From contig NZ_SPQG01000009.1 of assembly GCF_004944975.1 (NCBI RefSeq), positions 62,001 through 126,000 on the forward strand: DNA of 64,000 nt. The letters are read 5' to 3'. The DNA is from Halorhabdus amylolytica (GTDB taxonomy: Archaea; Halobacteriota; Halobacteria; Halobacteriales; Haloarculaceae). Positions 2,425-11,533 of this stretch are shown here, piece after piece. The translations under genes and the position numbers were made by a program. Within the stretch, counting starts at the first letter, position 1; the number at the start of each line of letters is the position of its first letter. Below the pieces are notes generated by a model. The model was not told the DNA's origin, ran no database searches, and saw only the letters and a list, made by a program, of their open reading frames with translations.

Positions 2425-3291
2425 ATGAGCGAGGACGAACGCAAGTTGATGGACGATCGCGGGCAGTTCCTCCAGGCCGTGCGTGGCGGCCGGGAGGTCC
2501 AGGACGCCGATTGGACGCAGTGTCGGATCGTCCTCACGACGGTACGGATCGTCCTCGTCGCCGAGGGAAAGCGGACGATCCCCCTCGATTCGATCACCGA
2601 CGTCGGCGGCCGCTACGACGTCAACCAGAACGCGGCGGGCGTGGCCAGCTACGTCACGATCCACGTCGAGGGGGAGGACGTCTTGCTTTTGCGGGCGCCC
2701 GAACAGGACGAGTTCGAAACGGATCTCTATCGGGCGTTCGTCGACAACACGATCGTCTACGTCCAGCATCCCGCGGTGAAGGGTGGCGTCGTCCAGAACG
2801 CCGACTGGCAGCGGGCGAAGATCAAACTCACCGACGAGGCGCTGCAACTGGCACTTTCGGACGGCCAGTACGTGACGATCGATCGGGACGACATCGGGGA
2901 CGTCGAGACGGACGAACAGACCGTCGACGGATCCGAGCGGCGCGTTTTCGAGGTCGAACATACTGATGAGGAGGGAACGAGCGTCGAGACAAACCTGACG
3001 GGTGAGGAGGAGCAAGTGACGATCCTAGAGGAGGTCCTCCAGGAGGGGGCCGAGCGTAACCGCGCGAACCTGGACCTTTCGCCCGTCGAACAGCAGATCG
3101 TCATGGCGCTGCACTCGGGCGTCTCGCCGTTCGATCTCCCGGAGTTCGTCGACAGCGACGTCGAGGAGATCGAGGAGATCTTCGATCGGTTGATCGAACT
3201 CGACGTGATCGAGACGATCAGGGAACGGACCGAGGTCGAGATGACCTCCCGCGGTCGGCAGGTCGCCAGCGAGGAGATGGGCAACCAGTAG
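2425..3291 (+). CDS. cheF: Taxis protein CheF (DUF439 family)
   Basis: The 288-residue length and sequence fit the archaeal CheF family, which connects the bacterial-type chemotaxis proteins (CheY, CheC, CheD) to the archaellum motor in Halobacterium. Two similar N-terminal beta-rich segments (about residues 20-95 and 110-170) have the look of PH-like domains. They are followed by a short acidic linker and a C-terminal winged-helix-like segment (about 215-285). No other che or arl genes lie in the window, so this copy stands alone. It might be a paralogue of the one in the main motility cluster. The start is the ATG that gives the family's usual length. Confidence 0.75.
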   Translation: MSEDERKLMDDRGQFLQAVRGGREVQDADWTQCRIVLTTVRIVLVAEGKRTIPLDSITDVGGRYDVNQNAAGVASYVTIHVEGEDVLLLRAPEQDEFETDLYRAFVDNTIVYVQHPAVKGGVVQNADWQRAKIKLTDEALQLALSDGQYVTIDRDDIGDVETDEQTVDGSERRVFEVEHTDEEGTSVETNLTGEEEQVTILEEVLQEGAERNRANLDLSPVEQQIVMALHSGVSPFDLPEFVDSDVEEIEEIFDRLIELDVIETIRERTEVEMTSRGRQVASEEMGNQ

Positions 3292-6531: not shown

Positions 6532-6566
6532 CTTATGCAGTTAGTTACTCACGTAGTGAGTAACAC
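6532..6566 (+). promoter_or_regulatory. Promoter and TrmB-type operator of the sulfosugar SDR operon
   Basis: A TATA-like CTTATG lies at 6532-6537, 30 bases before the ATG at 6567, so the mRNA should be nearly leaderless. Between them is a perfect inverted repeat at 6544-6564: arms GTTACTCAC and GTGAGTAAC around GTA. It contains TACT (6546-6549), eight bases, then GAGTA (6558-6562). This is the TACT-N(7-8)-GAGTA arrangement known for the TrmB regulon of Halobacterium salinarum. The site covers the expected transcription start, a position suited to repression. A TrmB-family gene lies at the far end of the operon. Confidence 0.75.
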
Positions 6567-7742
6567 ATGACGATCATCGTCACCGGCGGCGACGGTCACA
6601 TCGGGTGGCCGACCGCGCTCCGCATCGCAACTCGCACCGACGACCGCGTAATTCTCGTGGACAACTTCGCCCGGCGGGAGTGGGTCGAGGAGGTCGGTTC
6701 GGTCAGCGGCGTCCCGATCGCCTCGATCGACGAGCGGATCGAGGCTGCCGAGGAGGTCCACGGCGTGACGAACCTCTCGTTTGTCGAAGGGGATCTCGTC
6801 GAGAAGTCCTTCGTCGACGAACTGCTTGCCGTTCACGAACCCGACACGATCGTCCACACGGCCGCCCAGCCCTCCGCGCCGTATTCCCAGATCAATGGTG
6901 AGCGGGCCAACTACACCCAGCACAACAACATGCAGGCCACGCGGAACCTGCTGTGGGGCCTGGAGGCACACGACCTGACGGACGCCCACTTCATCGAGAC
7001 GACCACGACCGGCGTTTACGGCGCCCCCGAGTTCCCGATTCCGGAGGGCGGTGCGACCATGGAGAATCAGGGCGAGGAAGACGAGGTCCCGTTCCCGGCG
7101 ATGGCAGGGAGCTGGTATCACCTCACCAAGAGCCACGACGCGGCGAACATGCGCCTGGCCCACTCGCAGTTCGACATCCCCATCTCGGACGTACGGACGG
7201 CGATCACCTACGGGACGGGAACCGAGGAGACGGCCGCCGACCCGCGACTCACGACGCGCTTCGATTTCGACTACTACTTCGGCGTCGTCGCTCACCGCTT
7301 CGCCGCCCAGGCGGTTGCTGGCTATCCGATGACGGTCTACGGCAAGGGCGAGCAGCGCAAACCCTTCATCGCGCTGGAGGACGCCGTCGAGGGGCTGGCC
7401 CGTCTGGCCCTCAACGATCCCGACGACCGGCCGGCTGAGCACGTCGTCTACAACCAGGTTACTCGTGCGATCTCCATCGTCGAGGTCGCAGAGACCATCG
7501 CCGACGTCGCCGGCGAGTACGATCTCGACGTCGCGGTCGAGCACTTCGAGAACCCTCGCGACGAGGACGAGACCCACAAGATGGAGATCGAGAACGACCG
7601 CTACGCCGATCTCATCGACGGTCAGGACACGACCTTCGAGGAGGGTGTCCGGTCGATCCTGGGCACGCTGGTCGAGTATCAGGACCGGATCACGGCCCAC
7701 GAGGATCGGTTCCTCCCCGGCGTGCTGACTGACGGCGAGTGA
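6567..7742 (+). CDS. NAD-dependent epimerase/dehydratase, UDP-sulfoquinovose synthase (SQD1/Agl3)-like
   Basis: This 391-residue extended SDR has the dinucleotide loop TGGDGHIGW at the N-terminus. It matches the SQD1 family in several blocks: IASIDERI near residue 51, QPSAPYSQIN then YTQHNN (about 101-121), TTTTGVYG (about 145-152), WYHLTKSHD giving Tyr184-x3-Lys188, and VYGKGEQ. SQD1 enzymes convert UDP-glucose and sulfite to UDP-sulfoquinovose; Sulfolobus Agl3 does so for S-layer N-glycans. It is the first gene of a three-gene operon behind a TrmB-type operator. Family membership is strong, but the actual product here (sulfoquinovose or a related sulfosugar nucleotide) is inferred. Confidence 0.75.
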   Translation: MTIIVTGGDGHIGWPTALRIATRTDDRVILVDNFARREWVEEVGSVSGVPIASIDERIEAAEEVHGVTNLSFVEGDLVEKSFVDELLAVHEPDTIVHTAAQPSAPYSQINGERANYTQHNNMQATRNLLWGLEAHDLTDAHFIETTTTGVYGAPEFPIPEGGATMENQGEEDEVPFPAMAGSWYHLTKSHDAANMRLAHSQFDIPISDVRTAITYGTGTEETAADPRLTTRFDFDYYFGVVAHRFAAQAVAGYPMTVYGKGEQRKPFIALEDAVEGLARLALNDPDDRPAEHVVYNQVTRAISIVEVAETIADVAGEYDLDVAVEHFENPRDEDETHKMEIENDRYADLIDGQDTTFEEGVRSILGTLVEYQDRITAHEDRFLPGVLTDGE

Positions 7743-7748
7743 CCTCCC

Positions 7749-8696
7749 ATGGACGTACTGGTCACTGGCGGAATGGGCTATATCGGCAGCGCCCTATTGG
7801 CCCTGCTCGATGCGGCCGACGACGTCGACCGGATCGTAGTGCTCGACTCGCTCGCGAGTGGATCGCCACGCAACCTGCTGGAGACTCGCGTCGACGACGA
7901 TCTGGACTTCCGACGGGGTGACGTCCGGGAGTACGGCGACGTCGAAAACGCAACCCGTGGCGTCGATAGCGTGATCCACCTGGCGGCGATCACCGGCGCG
8001 GCGAGTACCCACGATCGTCGCGAGGAGACGATGGCAGTCAACCGAGAGGGAACGGAGAACGTCGTCAACGCGGCCCGAAAACTCGATGTCGAGAACCTCG
8101 TGTTCGCCTCTTCGTGTAACAATTACGGTCGCGCAGCGACGACCGATATTGACGAGGATACCGAGCCGGACCCGTTGAATCCCTACGCCGAAGCGAAAGT
8201 GCAGGCCGAGACGGTCGTCGCCGAGTTTGCCGAGGCGACCGGGGCGAACGCGACCGCACTCCGGATGAGTACGAACTACGGTTACGCTCCGGGGGTACGG
8301 TTCAACCTCGTGGTCAATCATTTCGTCTTCCGGGCACTGACCGGCCGACCGCTGACGGTATACGGCGACGGGTCGAACTGGCGGCCGTTCATCCACGTTC
8401 GGGACGCCGCCCGGGCGTTCGCTCACGCCGCCCGCAATCCCGAATCGTGGCCCCAGGGCGTCTACAACGTCGGCAGCGACGCCGGCAACTACCGGATCAG
8501 CGAGATCGCCGAGATCGTCAGCGAGGAGGTCGCCCCCGTCGACGTGACCTACCTCGAAGACGAACACCCCGGCCCCTCCTACCACGTGAACTTCGATCGT
8601 CTCGAAGAGACTGGTTTCGAGACCGAGTGGACCCTCCGGGAGGGCGTCCGTGACCTCGCCGGGACTCTCCGCGATCCACGGGAGATCAACGTATGA
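7749..8696 (+). CDS. NAD-dependent sugar-nucleotide epimerase/dehydratase (extended SDR)
   Basis: 315 residues with TGGMGYIGS at residues 6-14, Asp33 at the end of the second strand (NAD binding), SSCNNYG at 121-127 and the catalytic pair Tyr146-x3-Lys150. VYGDGSNWRPFIHVRD is the family's substrate-domain motif. It is probably a UDP-glucose 4-epimerase-like or dehydratase-like enzyme acting on a nucleotide sugar. It starts 6 bases after the SQD1-like gene and overlaps the next SDR by 4 bases, so all three enzymes are made together. The exact reaction cannot be told from sequence alone. Confidence 0.8.
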   Translation: MDVLVTGGMGYIGSALLALLDAADDVDRIVVLDSLASGSPRNLLETRVDDDLDFRRGDVREYGDVENATRGVDSVIHLAAITGAASTHDRREETMAVNREGTENVVNAARKLDVENLVFASSCNNYGRAATTDIDEDTEPDPLNPYAEAKVQAETVVAEFAEATGANATALRMSTNYGYAPGVRFNLVVNHFVFRALTGRPLTVYGDGSNWRPFIHVRDAARAFAHAARNPESWPQGVYNVGSDAGNYRISEIAEIVSEEVAPVDVTYLEDEHPGPSYHVNFDRLEETGFETEWTLREGVRDLAGTLRDPREINV

Positions 8697-9691
8697 CTGG
8701 AGACGAATCCTTCGACTCCGAAGAACCGCTCTCGATCGCCGTCACCGGCGCGGCCGGGTATATCGGCTCCCGCGTCGTCGACCGCCTGCAGGCGACCCAT
8801 CCCGACTGGGAACTCACGGCGATCGACAACTTCTACCTGGGCGACGTCCGGGAGATCGGCGACGTGACCGTCCAGCACGTCGACGTGCGGGATCGCCGTC
8901 GTCTGGAGGACGCACTGTCCGGCAGCGACGTGGTGATGCATCTGGCGGCGATCAGTGGCGTCGACGACTGCGAGGAACAACCGGATCTGACCTACGAGAC
9001 GAACGTCTACGGGACCGAGAACGTCGCGTGGTTCTGCCGGAAGACCGGTGCGGCGATGATCTTCCCGTTCAGCATGGCTGTCCTCGGCGATCCGTCGTCC
9101 TTCCCGATCACTGCCGACCAGCCCCGGGACCCCATGAACTGGTACGGTCGGACGAAACTGCTCAACGAGCGCGCGATCGAGACATACGCCGACGGCGCGT
9201 TCCCGGCCCACCTCTTCTTGAAGTCGAACCTCTACGGGGACCATCGTATCGGCGATCGGGTCGTCTCGAAAGGGACAGTCATCAACTTCTTCCTCGATCG
9301 GGTGTTCGCGGGCGAGACGCTGACCGTCTACGAACCAGGGACGCAGGCCCGCAATTACGTCCACGTCAAGGATATCGCGCGGGCGTACGTTCGGAGCGCG
9401 GAACGCCTCGCGGGACAACTCGCCGCAGGCGAGACCGGCGTCGAACGTTACGAGCTTGCCAGCGACGAGGACCCGAGCGTTCGGACCGTCGCCGACCGGA
9501 TCCAGTCGATCGCCGGCGAGTTCGACGTCGACGTCGACGTGGAACTCGTCGAGAACCCGCGTGCTGGCGGGGAAACGCTCGTTTCCGAGTTCGCGGTCGA
9601 CACCTCGTCTGCCCGGGAGACGCTCGGGTGGGAGGTCCGACACTCCATCGAGGGGACGGTCCGCGAGCGCCTCGAACGACGGCTAGGTTGA
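8693..9691 (+). CDS. NAD-dependent sugar-nucleotide epimerase/dehydratase (extended SDR)
   Basis: 332 residues with TGAAGYIGS (about 18-26), HLAAISGV (about 83-90), PFSMAVLG with Ser127, and Tyr151-x3-Lys155 (YGRTK). The C-terminal part is VYEPGTQARNYVHVKDIA, a nucleotide-sugar epimerase signature. It is the last gene of the SQD1-like operon, with an ATGA overlap at its start. It is homologous to, but clearly different from, the gene before it. Its partner pathway is probably modification of the sugar nucleotide made by the first enzyme, for example an epimer or 4-keto derivative. The TrmB-family gene follows on the other strand after 20 bases. Confidence 0.8.
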   Translation: MTGDESFDSEEPLSIAVTGAAGYIGSRVVDRLQATHPDWELTAIDNFYLGDVREIGDVTVQHVDVRDRRRLEDALSGSDVVMHLAAISGVDDCEEQPDLTYETNVYGTENVAWFCRKTGAAMIFPFSMAVLGDPSSFPITADQPRDPMNWYGRTKLLNERAIETYADGAFPAHLFLKSNLYGDHRIGDRVVSKGTVINFFLDRVFAGETLTVYEPGTQARNYVHVKDIARAYVRSAERLAGQLAAGETGVERYELASDEDPSVRTVADRIQSIAGEFDVDVDVELVENPRAGGETLVSEFAVDTSSARETLGWEVRHSIEGTVRERLERRLG

Positions 9692-9711
9692 TCGTCCGGA
9701 CCACTACCGCG

Positions 9712-10557
9712 TCACTCGACGGAAGTGCTGTCGTGGTCCCAGATCAACTCGAAGTACCGACCGAGTCCGGCGACGAACGAGCCGTTTTCGGTGACTGCGG
9801 CCTGGCGCATCGACAGTGGGATGTCCGTCTCTTCGACGAGGACGATCGCCTTTCCGGTCTCGTAGTCCATGCTGGGATCGGCGATCGTTCCACGCCAGGG
9901 GAGGCGCTCGTTGCTGAACCGGAGGTCGACCTGCGGGAACGCCTCTCGGAGGGTTTCGATTCGGTCGGCCTGTACCCGACGGTTGTCCGCCGAGAGGTGT
10001 GAGGGGTCAAGCAGCAGGACGCGGATCGCGACGTCACGCTCGTAGGCGTCGGCGAAGGCCGGTCGGACCGACTCGAAGTACTCCAAGGACTTGGTGAGGA
10101 CGGCGATCTCCCGGTCGGCATTACGGTAGAGAGCGCGGGTCTCCGTCTCGCTTGGATCACCGACGTCCACGACGTGAAAGAGGTCTTCGGCCGGCGTGAC
10201 GTCCTCGCTGGCGCGCTCGTAGAGTGGGCCGAACTGCGAGAGGAACTCTTCCCGGACCGACTCGACATCGGCCTGGAACGACTCGAAGGACTGTCGGCGG
10301 TTCTCGATCGCCCGGTCGAGGATCTCTTCCGGGTGTTTGGCCTCGTACTCCTTGGGTCGGCCCGGAATCTCCTTGATGTAGCCCGCGTTCGCGAGCGTCC
10401 CGAGGACGTCGTAGATCCGGGCTCGCGGGATCCCCGTCACCTCAGCGAGGTTCGGCGCCGTTGTCCGCCCGAGCGTGAGTAACTGTGTCAGCGCCGTCGA
10501 CTCGTATTCCCCGAGATCGAGGTGTTCGAGTAGCTCTGCCGCACTGTCGTCGGTCAT
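9712..10557 (-). CDS. TrmB-family transcriptional regulator
   Basis: 281 residues with an N-terminal winged helix (about 12-75; NLAEVTGIPRARIYDVLGTL is the recognition part), a helical linker and a C-terminal phospholipase-D-like sugar-sensing domain. TrmB proteins bind sugars and control sugar transport or metabolism. The chosen ATG has GGAG 6 bases upstream; a start 27 bases earlier is also open. It is convergent with the SDR operon, whose promoter carries a perfect TrmB-type palindrome, so that operon is the likely target. A second such site lies at 11316-11336. It may respond to a sugar or sulfosugar, which is inference. Confidence 0.85.
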   Translation of the reverse strand: MTDDSAAELLEHLDLGEYESTALTQLLTLGRTTAPNLAEVTGIPRARIYDVLGTLANAGYIKEIPGRPKEYEAKHPEEILDRAIENRRQSFESFQADVESVREEFLSQFGPLYERASEDVTPAEDLFHVVDVGDPSETETRALYRNADREIAVLTKSLEYFESVRPAFADAYERDVAIRVLLLDPSHLSADNRRVQADRIETLREAFPQVDLRFSNERLPWRGTIADPSMDYETGKAIVLVEETDIPLSMRQAAVTENGSFVAGLGRYFELIWDHDSTSVE

Positions 10558-10720
10558 TGTCGCTCCTTCACGGCGCCGGTGCATTAACTCTTACAAAGCG
10601 TGTCATAGAACTTCCCACAAGGAATTATTTTCATATGACATTCAGCGAAGCAGTTGTTCGATAGAGCATGCGAATATACGATCAATAAAAATCATAATCG
10701 TCTAACCCATTACGGTACCT

Positions 10721-10912
10721 ATGGCTCTCCAATCGCTCCCAATTTGGCGACTAACACTGGGAAAAGAGGCAGGGGTGATATTCACCGTTTTCGTCGTTGT
10801 CTGGCTTAGTAGTCGGGGAGACCTCAATCCGCTTGGCCTGCTATTCGTCTCCCTCAGTGCAGTGGCTTTCACTGGCCTATACTTTCTCGCAGCATCCGTT
10901 AGGCAACGATAG
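10721..10912 (+). CDS. Small membrane protein, two predicted transmembrane segments
   Basis: 63 residues with two hydrophobic stretches, about 16-30 (GVIFTVFVVVWLSS) and 36-57 (LGLLFVSLSAVAFTGLYFLA), and a positively charged C-terminus (RQR). No family recognised. It lies in a patch that is more AT-rich than the rest of the window, behind an AT-rich sequence (about 10660-10700) that can serve as a promoter. The base composition and lack of relatives suggest a recently acquired or fast-evolving gene. Its reality is likely but not certain. Confidence 0.45.
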   Translation: MALQSLPIWRLTLGKEAGVIFTVFVVVWLSSRGDLNPLGLLFVSLSAVAFTGLYFLAASVRQR

Positions 10913-11315
10913 TCGATCCTCAGCGTCTATCGCTGTGGCGGACATTCGACACCGTGAACGGTTCGTCGTTCTCCTTTCCTACCGAAAAGACACATCCCAC
11001 CGTCTACGGTAATTACGGGTATGGGCACTCTTCAAGCTGTGTACCAGCAATTGGATCATCGAGTGCGTGAACTATCTTGAAACAGCGAGAGAATCCCGCC
11101 GTCGTCGGGCTACGCCCGACTGCTTGAGGGAGCTACGCTCCCTCTCCGTTCACGGCGCGGAGGATGTCACCGGTCTCATGCTACCCTCAAGGAGCGAACC
11201 GCGAAGGCCGTGAGCGAGTAGGGTGGGGTGGTTGACGGATACGCCACGTCGACTCCCGCTCCGTCCAGATGGTCGACACGGTCCCGAAAGATATTTACTG
11301 GCCGCGGATGGTGTA
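10913..11315. other. Gene-poor stretch with a probable IS relic and hairpins
   Basis: No convincing gene. The first part (10913-11070) is featureless. From about 11083 the sequence resembles the right end of a haloarchaeal IS200/IS605-type (TnpB) element and includes two strong hairpins, listed separately. At 11290-11297 an AT-rich box (atatttac) is the likely TATA element for the small gene at 11337. Confidence 0.5.
11083..11225 (+). mobile_element. Possible decayed right end of an IS200/IS605-type (TnpB) element
   Basis: The text resembles what lies at the 3' end of haloarchaeal tnpB genes: a block gagaatcccgccg, then ccgttcacggcg and ggaggatgtcac, then aaggagcgaaccgcgaagg and gagcgagtagggtgg. 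Between the two halves of the cccgccg...cggcg stem sit two extra triloop hairpins: CGGGC-TAC-GCCCG at about 11106-11118 and GAGGGAGC-TAC-GCTCCCTC at about 11126-11144. No transposase frame is left. The likeness is from memory of such ends, so this call is tentative. Confidence 0.35.
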
Positions 11316-11336
11316 GTTACTAAGGATCTGAGTAAC
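11316..11336 (+). promoter_or_regulatory. Second TrmB-type operator, before the small gene at 11337
   Basis: GTTACT (11316-11321), eight bases, then GAGTAAC (11330-11336) gives the same TACT-N8-GAGTA layout as the palindrome before the SQD1-like operon, but with a non-palindromic centre. The site ends one base before the ATG. Two sites with the same outer sequence and the same position flank the TrmB-family gene on both sides, which supports a local regulon. Confidence 0.65.
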
Positions 11337-11471
11337 ATGAGTGAAACGCCGGACGACGACTACGAGCATCTCGAAGATGTCGAGGACGGCTGTGGGTGTG
11401 CGGAGATCTGGGAGGCGATGAGTGAGCAGCGAGGTCGACCAGCGGGAGACCTCGAAACAGGAGAGCGGTGA
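11337..11471 (+). CDS. Small acidic protein of unknown function
   Basis: 44 residues: an acidic N-terminal part, then CGCAEIW with two cysteines, then a basic/polar tail. The ATG follows directly on the TrmB-type operator, so this would be a leaderless mRNA under that control. The last 49 bases of the gene region are duplicated just downstream (11485-11533), and the stop codon lies within the first copy, so the present C-terminus may have been made by the duplication. Small Cys-containing acidic proteins like this are common in haloarchaea. I do not know a function. Confidence 0.5.
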   Translation: MSETPDDDYEHLEDVEDGCGCAEIWEAMSEQRGRPAGDLETGER

Positions 11472-11533
11472 CGAACGGAACCGCGAGCAGCGAGGTCGAC
11501 CAGCGGGAGACCTCGAAACAGGAGAGCGGTGAC
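11424..11533 (+). repeat. 49-bp perfect direct repeat, 61-bp period
   Basis: Copies at 11424-11472 and 11485-11533 are identical, with a 12-base spacer. The first copy holds the last codons and stop of the small gene at 11337. The perfect match shows a recent tandem duplication. Confidence 0.9.

Follow-up and report, generated by a model that had tools for sequence, protein, structure and literature searches.

The 64,000-nucleotide stretch of the Halorhabdus amylolytica genome analysed here (the window) carries two palindromic sites with the same outer blocks, one at the start of an operon of three short-chain dehydrogenase/reductase (SDR) genes headed by a homologue of the UDP-sulfoquinovose synthase SQD1, the other at the start of a gene for a 44-residue microprotein, with a gene for a TrmB-family protein between them (Table 1). 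From sequence comparison over 146 genomes of the order, we propose, with a probability of about 0.8, that these elements constitute a two-target regulon in which a dedicated TrmB-family regulator, likely a repressor, controls the SQD1 operon and a sulfite-linked microprotein. The regulon is real, conserved and very specific, and the microprotein is its most novel part.

The operators and their proposed reader

Both sites with the outer blocks GTTACT-N8-GAGTAAC, which had been pointed out in a preliminary description of the window, were found where it placed them, as was the TrmB-family gene between them, which lies on the minus strand and is convergent to the SDR operon. The distance of two bases between operator 1 and the SQD1 start codon also stands, whereas operator 2, said to end one base before the microprotein gene, directly adjoins its ATG. 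In the window, four matches to the motif with up to two mismatches were obtained, against 0.30 expected from shuffled sequences. The whole genome (3.46 Mb) has exactly two loci with an exact match and none matching the reversed control pattern. With up to two mismatches the genome-wide search produced 26 rows of matches versus 35 for the control pattern, but all rows with 0–1 mismatch are at the two operators. Taken together, the two genomic loci, the absence of control matches and the excess over shuffles place the sites far above chance and make them almost unique. A motif scattered at random through the genome, a concern raised in the preliminary description, is therefore rejected, the more so as the reversed control is close to zero across the order, with one match each in two of the 146 genomes.

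The exact motif is present in 44 of the 146 genomes, usually as two sites per genome. In the sites at SQD1 (n = 47), positions 2, 4, 6, 7 and 15–20 are invariant and the centre is variable. Allowing one mismatch, all 47 regulator-bearing genomes with an assessable SQD1 start have a site there, ending between 1 base inside and 4 bases before the start codon, and none of the eight assessable genomes without the regulator has one. These counts cover 55 of the 56 SQD1 homologues, since that of G121 lacks the first 48 residues and was excluded; a sequence with three mismatches 1 base from the SQD1 start of G070, a genome without the regulator, was scored as absent.

Orthologues of the local regulator occur in 48 of the 146 genomes, SQD1 homologues in 56 and canonical haloarchaeal TrmB, above its cut-off, in 110. 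The exact motif closely follows the local regulator (42 genomes have both, 2 the motif only, 6 the regulator only and 96 neither; Fisher p of about 1e-27), and the two motif-only genomes (G017 and G124) have single matches on one strand. Among SQD1-bearing genomes, 41 of the 47 that have the regulator also have the exact motif, as against 0 of the 9 that lack it. There is no association with canonical TrmB, the motif being found in 33 of 110 genomes with this protein and 11 of 36 without (p = 1). As related genomes were counted separately, the p-values overstate independence; presence and absence of motif and regulator do alternate inside families. In a second set of 80 named regulator loci from another collection, which partly overlaps the first and is thus not fully independent, 65 loci have at least one site of 0–1 mismatch in the available stretch, and 74 of the 82 such sites are at the start of a microprotein or SQD1 gene.

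These distributions make it very improbable that the global sugar-responsive TrmB uses the sites as its operators and that the local gene is irrelevant. The half-sites do match the form TACT-N(7-8)-GAGTA known for Halobacterium TrmB, which the preliminary description cites. Yet canonical TrmB is not found above the family cut-off in H. amylolytica and three genomes of the same genus, all of which keep both sites, and its missing in the genus together with the lack of association over the order largely refutes it as the reader. Moreover, no SQD1 gene is listed among the 15 peaks that ChIP gave for canonical TrmB in Haloarcula hispanica, in the part of the study that reports them (PMC10817205). 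The co-occurrence data strongly support the dedicated local TrmB-family regulator, separate from TrmB itself, as the predicted reader of the motif.

The best named relative of this regulator (P0001) comes from Halorhabdus salina (77 percent). The TrmB winged helix-turn-helix domain PF01978 spans residues 10–77 (65 bits, cut-off 25.6) and was the only match in a Pfam scan with E up to 0.001, the sugar-binding domain PF11495 not being recognised. The protein scores far below the equivalog models of both haloarchaeal sugar-sensing TrmB (NF047392, 44.5 bits versus a cut-off of 500) and TrmBL2 (NF041141, 52.6 versus 530). Thus, the local regulon of two operators, SDR operon and microprotein suggested in the preliminary description is borne out by co-occurrence and position in the 146 genomes, but its naming of the regulator as TrmB is not. 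The AlphaFold2 model has a mean predicted local distance difference test score (pLDDT) of 88.5 and a predicted template modelling score (pTM) of 0.56, indicating that the domains are well modelled but that their arrangement relative to each other is uncertain. TrmBL2 is the best full-length match in both fold and sequence (Foldseek E = 6e-18 to 5bpd). The comparison with 5box_A gave Z = 17.8 over 257 residues, with winged helix, long helix and phospholipase-D-like (PLD-like) domain in one chain; the root-mean-square deviation of 21.8 implies that domain orientation differs. In the model, the C-terminal part has the PLD-like fold that also occurs in the TrmB sugar-binding domain, and the alignment with the structure of that domain (2f5t) covers residues 110–242 of 2f5t.

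A winged helix of the TrmB type and an operator that is partly palindromic link haloarchaeal TrmB (Halobacterium VNG_1451C, Haloarcula HAH_1548) with the local regulator. However, canonical TrmB, as characterized in the relevant part of PMC10817205, carries a domain for sugar binding and has 15 binding sites in Haloarcula or more than 100 genes under its control in Halobacterium, largely gluconeogenic/metabolic, whereas the local regulator is far below the TrmB equivalog and its genome contains two sites. TrmBL2 (PDB 5bpd, 5box) is an archaeal chromatin protein according to the PDB titles; for the local regulator there are instead two specific operators in each genome. The second site of relatives usually falls between regulator and microprotein genes: a site lies within 200 bp of 31 of the 48 regulator genes, and a divergent microprotein gene within 400 bp of 32 of them. 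At most of these divergent promoters the site is about 65–110 bp 5' of the regulator start. In the window, a 63-residue hydrophobic open reading frame (ORF) without a Pfam match (10721–10912) lies between regulator and microprotein genes.

The SQD1 operon and the microprotein

P0003, the first product of the SDR operon, aligns with Arabidopsis SQD1 (1qrr) over residues 3–377 (E = 1.5e-68). Like SQD1 and Agl3, it belongs to the SDR family and has the catalytic Thr and Y-x3-K; in a residue check that covered 46 of the 56 haloarchaeal homologues, YHxxK and TTTTG were kept in all 46. With 348.6 bits, P0003 is below the cut-off of the UDP-sulfoquinovose synthase equivalog NF041015 (575). Huta_1116 of Halorhabdus utahensis is included in the published UDP-sulfoquinovose synthase tree, where halophiles form a separate cluster, as far as the section on the tree goes (PMC4388408). 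The SqdB operon of Haloquadratum walsbyi, noted in 2006 and consisting of SqdB and two GalE homologues, has the matching three-gene SDR plan; the passage describing it mentions no regulator, operator or microprotein (PMC1544339).

Additional sites were seen in a few relatives. In G041 and G130, two sites about 250 bp apart precede SQD1 (L141:4846, 5095; L142:5650, 5902), and no microprotein was found at these paired sites. In G093 and G139, extra operator-like sites (L159 near 3324, L168 near 179) are located 4 bases before a PF01663 gene, a type I phosphodiesterase/nucleotide pyrophosphatase, which is a possible third target.

Microproteins of the regulon have 31–55 residues. In 42 of 44 cases the gene starts 0–2 bases after the site or inside it, and in 11 of these 42 the microprotein gene begins with the right arm, (A/G)TGAGTAAC, which encodes Met-Ser-Asn where the start codon is ATG. 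The two exceptions are G060, where the site is 40 bases off and has two mismatches, and G134, with a two-mismatch site 1 base off. In G038 no microprotein was seen at a site in the stretches first examined, but one was found elsewhere (L362). Alignment of 43 sequences revealed invariant His, Gly, Gly, Cys, Glu, Trp, Glu and Arg. Searches of Pfam and NCBIfam with E up to 1 gave no convincing family; a sactipeptide model matched three of the 43 members, with a best E of 0.028, and was judged a chance match. The predicted structure has two short helices but is too uncertain to use (mean pLDDT 71.9). In G031 and G090, which have neither the regulator nor the motif, the microprotein stop codon overlaps the SQD1 start as ATGA (L199 of G031, 5' of 2803; L201 of G090, 5' of 1764, minus strand), which points to a second, regulator-free route tying the microprotein to SQD1.

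The 3' end of the microprotein gene in the window is part of a 49-base exact direct repeat (11424–11472, and 11485–11533 just after the gene); Tandem Repeats Finder returned nothing at this 3' end. In L162 (near 3578) the regulated microprotein gene is followed by one for a family 2 glycosyltransferase, and a similar-looking ORF follows the microprotein in L154.

Table 1. Positions in the window of the operators, promoter elements and genes of the proposed regulon
Feature	Position	Strand	Description
Operator 1	6544-6564	none	GTTACTCAC-GTA-GTGAGTAAC; 2 bases 5' of the SQD1-like ATG at 6567
Operator 2	11316-11336	none	GTTACT-AAGGATCT-GAGTAAC; touches the microprotein ATG at 11337
TATA-like element, SQD1 operon promoter	6532-6537	+	read by eye
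TATA-like element, microprotein promoter	11291-11297	+	preceded by BRE-like CCGAAAG; read by eye
SQD1-like UDP-sulfoquinovose synthase homologue P0003	6567-7742	+	first gene of the three-SDR operon
Second SDR P0004	7749-8696	+	NAD-dependent epimerase/dehydratase; adjoins SQD1 homologues in many relatives' loci
Third SDR P0005	8693-9691	+	last gene of the SQD1-SDR-SDR operon
TrmB-family regulator P0001	9712-10557	-	TrmBL2-like architecture; proposed reader of both operators
44-residue microprotein	11337-11471	+	core HLEDVEDGCGCAEIWEAMSEQR

Microprotein paralogues beside siroheme reductases

A microprotein profile detected relatives in 126 of the 146 genomes, including four in H. amylolytica. 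A siroheme reductase (NIR_SIR domain) is encoded at 47 of 60 sampled paralogue loci but at none of the comparison loci (0/80 and 0/56). The 60 loci are not a random sample: 20 were chosen by hand and the other 40 followed the listing order roughly, with some, mostly those on short contigs, being skipped; L362, where the copy belongs to the regulon and has a site at the start, and L370, which has no match to the short-protein pattern, were kept in the denominator. The reductase-adjacent paralogues lack the operator. Most reductase-linked loci represent a single ancestral arrangement that also includes genes for a 113-residue protein and a DUF7119 protein. At the 60 loci, the DUF7119 protein is a neighbour in 42 and the unnamed 113-residue protein in 44 (e.g. 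L347:1550-2248, 2774-3115).

Two other arrangements were observed. In the Halorhabdus loci L337 (2624–5364) and L343, the paralogue is directly preceded by a reductase and an FrhB-like F420 subunit, a pair that resembles a split F420-dependent sulfite reductase. In L341, a rhodanese-reductase fusion is accompanied by a PAPS-reductase-like gene. Pfam matches do not separate sulfite from nitrite reductases, and the NCBIfam nitrite reductase model outscores the sulfite models, yet remains below its own cut-off; the FrhB and PAPS-reductase-like neighbours favour sulfite over nitrite. In Haloarcula hispanica, HAH_0188 and HAH_2805, both shorter than 50 residues, are activated by canonical TrmB according to the part of PMC10817205 concerned with them. 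Among the ORFs examined around the L346 copy of a related Haloarcula, ribC is not a neighbour, and membership of HAH_2805 in the microprotein family is therefore not supported.

Based on these neighbourhoods we tentatively suggest, at less than even odds, that the microprotein belongs, as a regulated member, to a family of tiny haloarchaeal proteins that handle sulfite and that the repressor sets the split of sulfite between sulfosugars and sulfide. Such a family would be defined by the core HL-x-D-V-x-D-G-[CA]-G-C-x-E-I-W-E with its one invariant Cys, and might bind sulfite (or bound sulfur) or pass it to siroheme sulfite reductase in one branch and to UDP-sulfoquinovose synthase in the other. 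Alternatively, the microprotein could be an adaptor or anti-repressor of the regulator and not a component of a sulfur pathway. Its divergent pairing with the regulator at 32 of 48 loci would suit this role, but paralogues adjoin siroheme reductases without any operator, and G031 and G090 couple the microprotein to SQD1 with no regulator gene found; we thus regard an adaptor as unlikely.

Probable mode of control and its meaning for sulfosugar synthesis

Operator 1 is placed between the TATA-like element and the ATG. Transcription of the microprotein gene probably starts within operator 2, so that the microprotein mRNA may have a short leader and does not have to be leaderless in the strict sense; leaderless starts had been assumed for both targets in the preliminary description. 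In relatives, AT-rich TATA-like columns are also present 5' of the SQD1-start site (38 genomes profiled), and an AT-rich block is found at the matching distance 5' of the microprotein-start site. According to the part of PMC10817205 on this positional rule, TrmB-family proteins inhibit the recruitment of polymerase when bound downstream of TATA and activate when bound upstream. Combined with sites downstream of the TATA-like block, this rule favours repression, and site position argues that both targets are probably repressed.

We envisage that a dimer of the regulator, through its winged helix-turn-helix domains, would bind GTTACTC-N7-GAGTAAC at both genomic sites and, located downstream of the TATA boxes, would most likely block initiation at both targets, from which some ligand or state of the PLD-like C-terminal domain would release it. 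The SQD1-SDR-SDR operon is predicted to make UDP-sulfoquinovose or a related sulfosugar nucleotide from UDP-sugar and sulfite, and the microprotein most likely assists this pathway in handling sulfite or some other sulfur intermediate.

The opposite sign, with the regulator binding to and activating both targets when the supply of sulfite or sugar calls for sulfosugar synthesis, is quite unlikely. TrmB-family members can activate, and the site 65–110 bp 5' of the start at most divergent regulator promoters would be compatible with it, but in nearly all genomes both targets have the site at the start codon and downstream of the TATA-like block, where binding inhibits polymerase recruitment. That the palindrome works as a 5' hairpin of the RNA controlling translation, and not as a DNA operator, is hardly credible: the arms can pair and the microprotein site is probably inside the transcript, but arm positions are nearly invariant with compensating exchanges only at pair 8/14, the motif co-occurs with a DNA-binding protein, and the SQD1 site is probably mostly upstream of the transcription start.

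Several observations count against a two-target regulon devoted to sulfosugar synthesis. Six regulator genomes lack the exact motif; all six carry a one-mismatch site at SQD1. Four regulator genomes (G011, G026, G041 and G130) showed no microprotein at a site in the stretches examined. No site lies within 400 bp of the window regulator or of its three orthologues from the genus, which means that autoregulation is not general. The Met next to the catalytic Thr of SQD1-type enzymes is replaced by Thr in all 46 haloarchaeal homologues checked, P0003 included, and the equivalent Met145 of Sulfolobus Agl3 is essential, according to the part of PMC4388408 dealing with this residue. The exact reaction of the SQD1-like enzyme may therefore differ, and 'UDP-sulfoquinovose or a related sulfosugar nucleotide' appears to be the fair label for the predicted product. 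Finally, most reductase-linked paralogues are at orthologous loci and thus reflect few independent events.

For haloarchaeal sulfosugar synthesis, the proposed regulon adds a named regulator, operator and partner protein, where the published work we found covers the enzymes and not their control. Searches of one literature library retrieved no paper joining the TrmB family with sulfoquinovose and none joining sulfoquinovosamine with Haloarcula. With just two sites, the regulon is small enough for complete testing in one genetically tractable haloarchaeon. As discussed in the part of PMC4388408 on this question, the in-cell source of sulfite for SQD1-type enzymes is not fully settled, the plant enzyme having been isolated with ferredoxin-dependent glutamate synthase. 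A co-regulated microprotein with paralogues beside siroheme reductases is a direct candidate for the supply of sulfite to SQD1.

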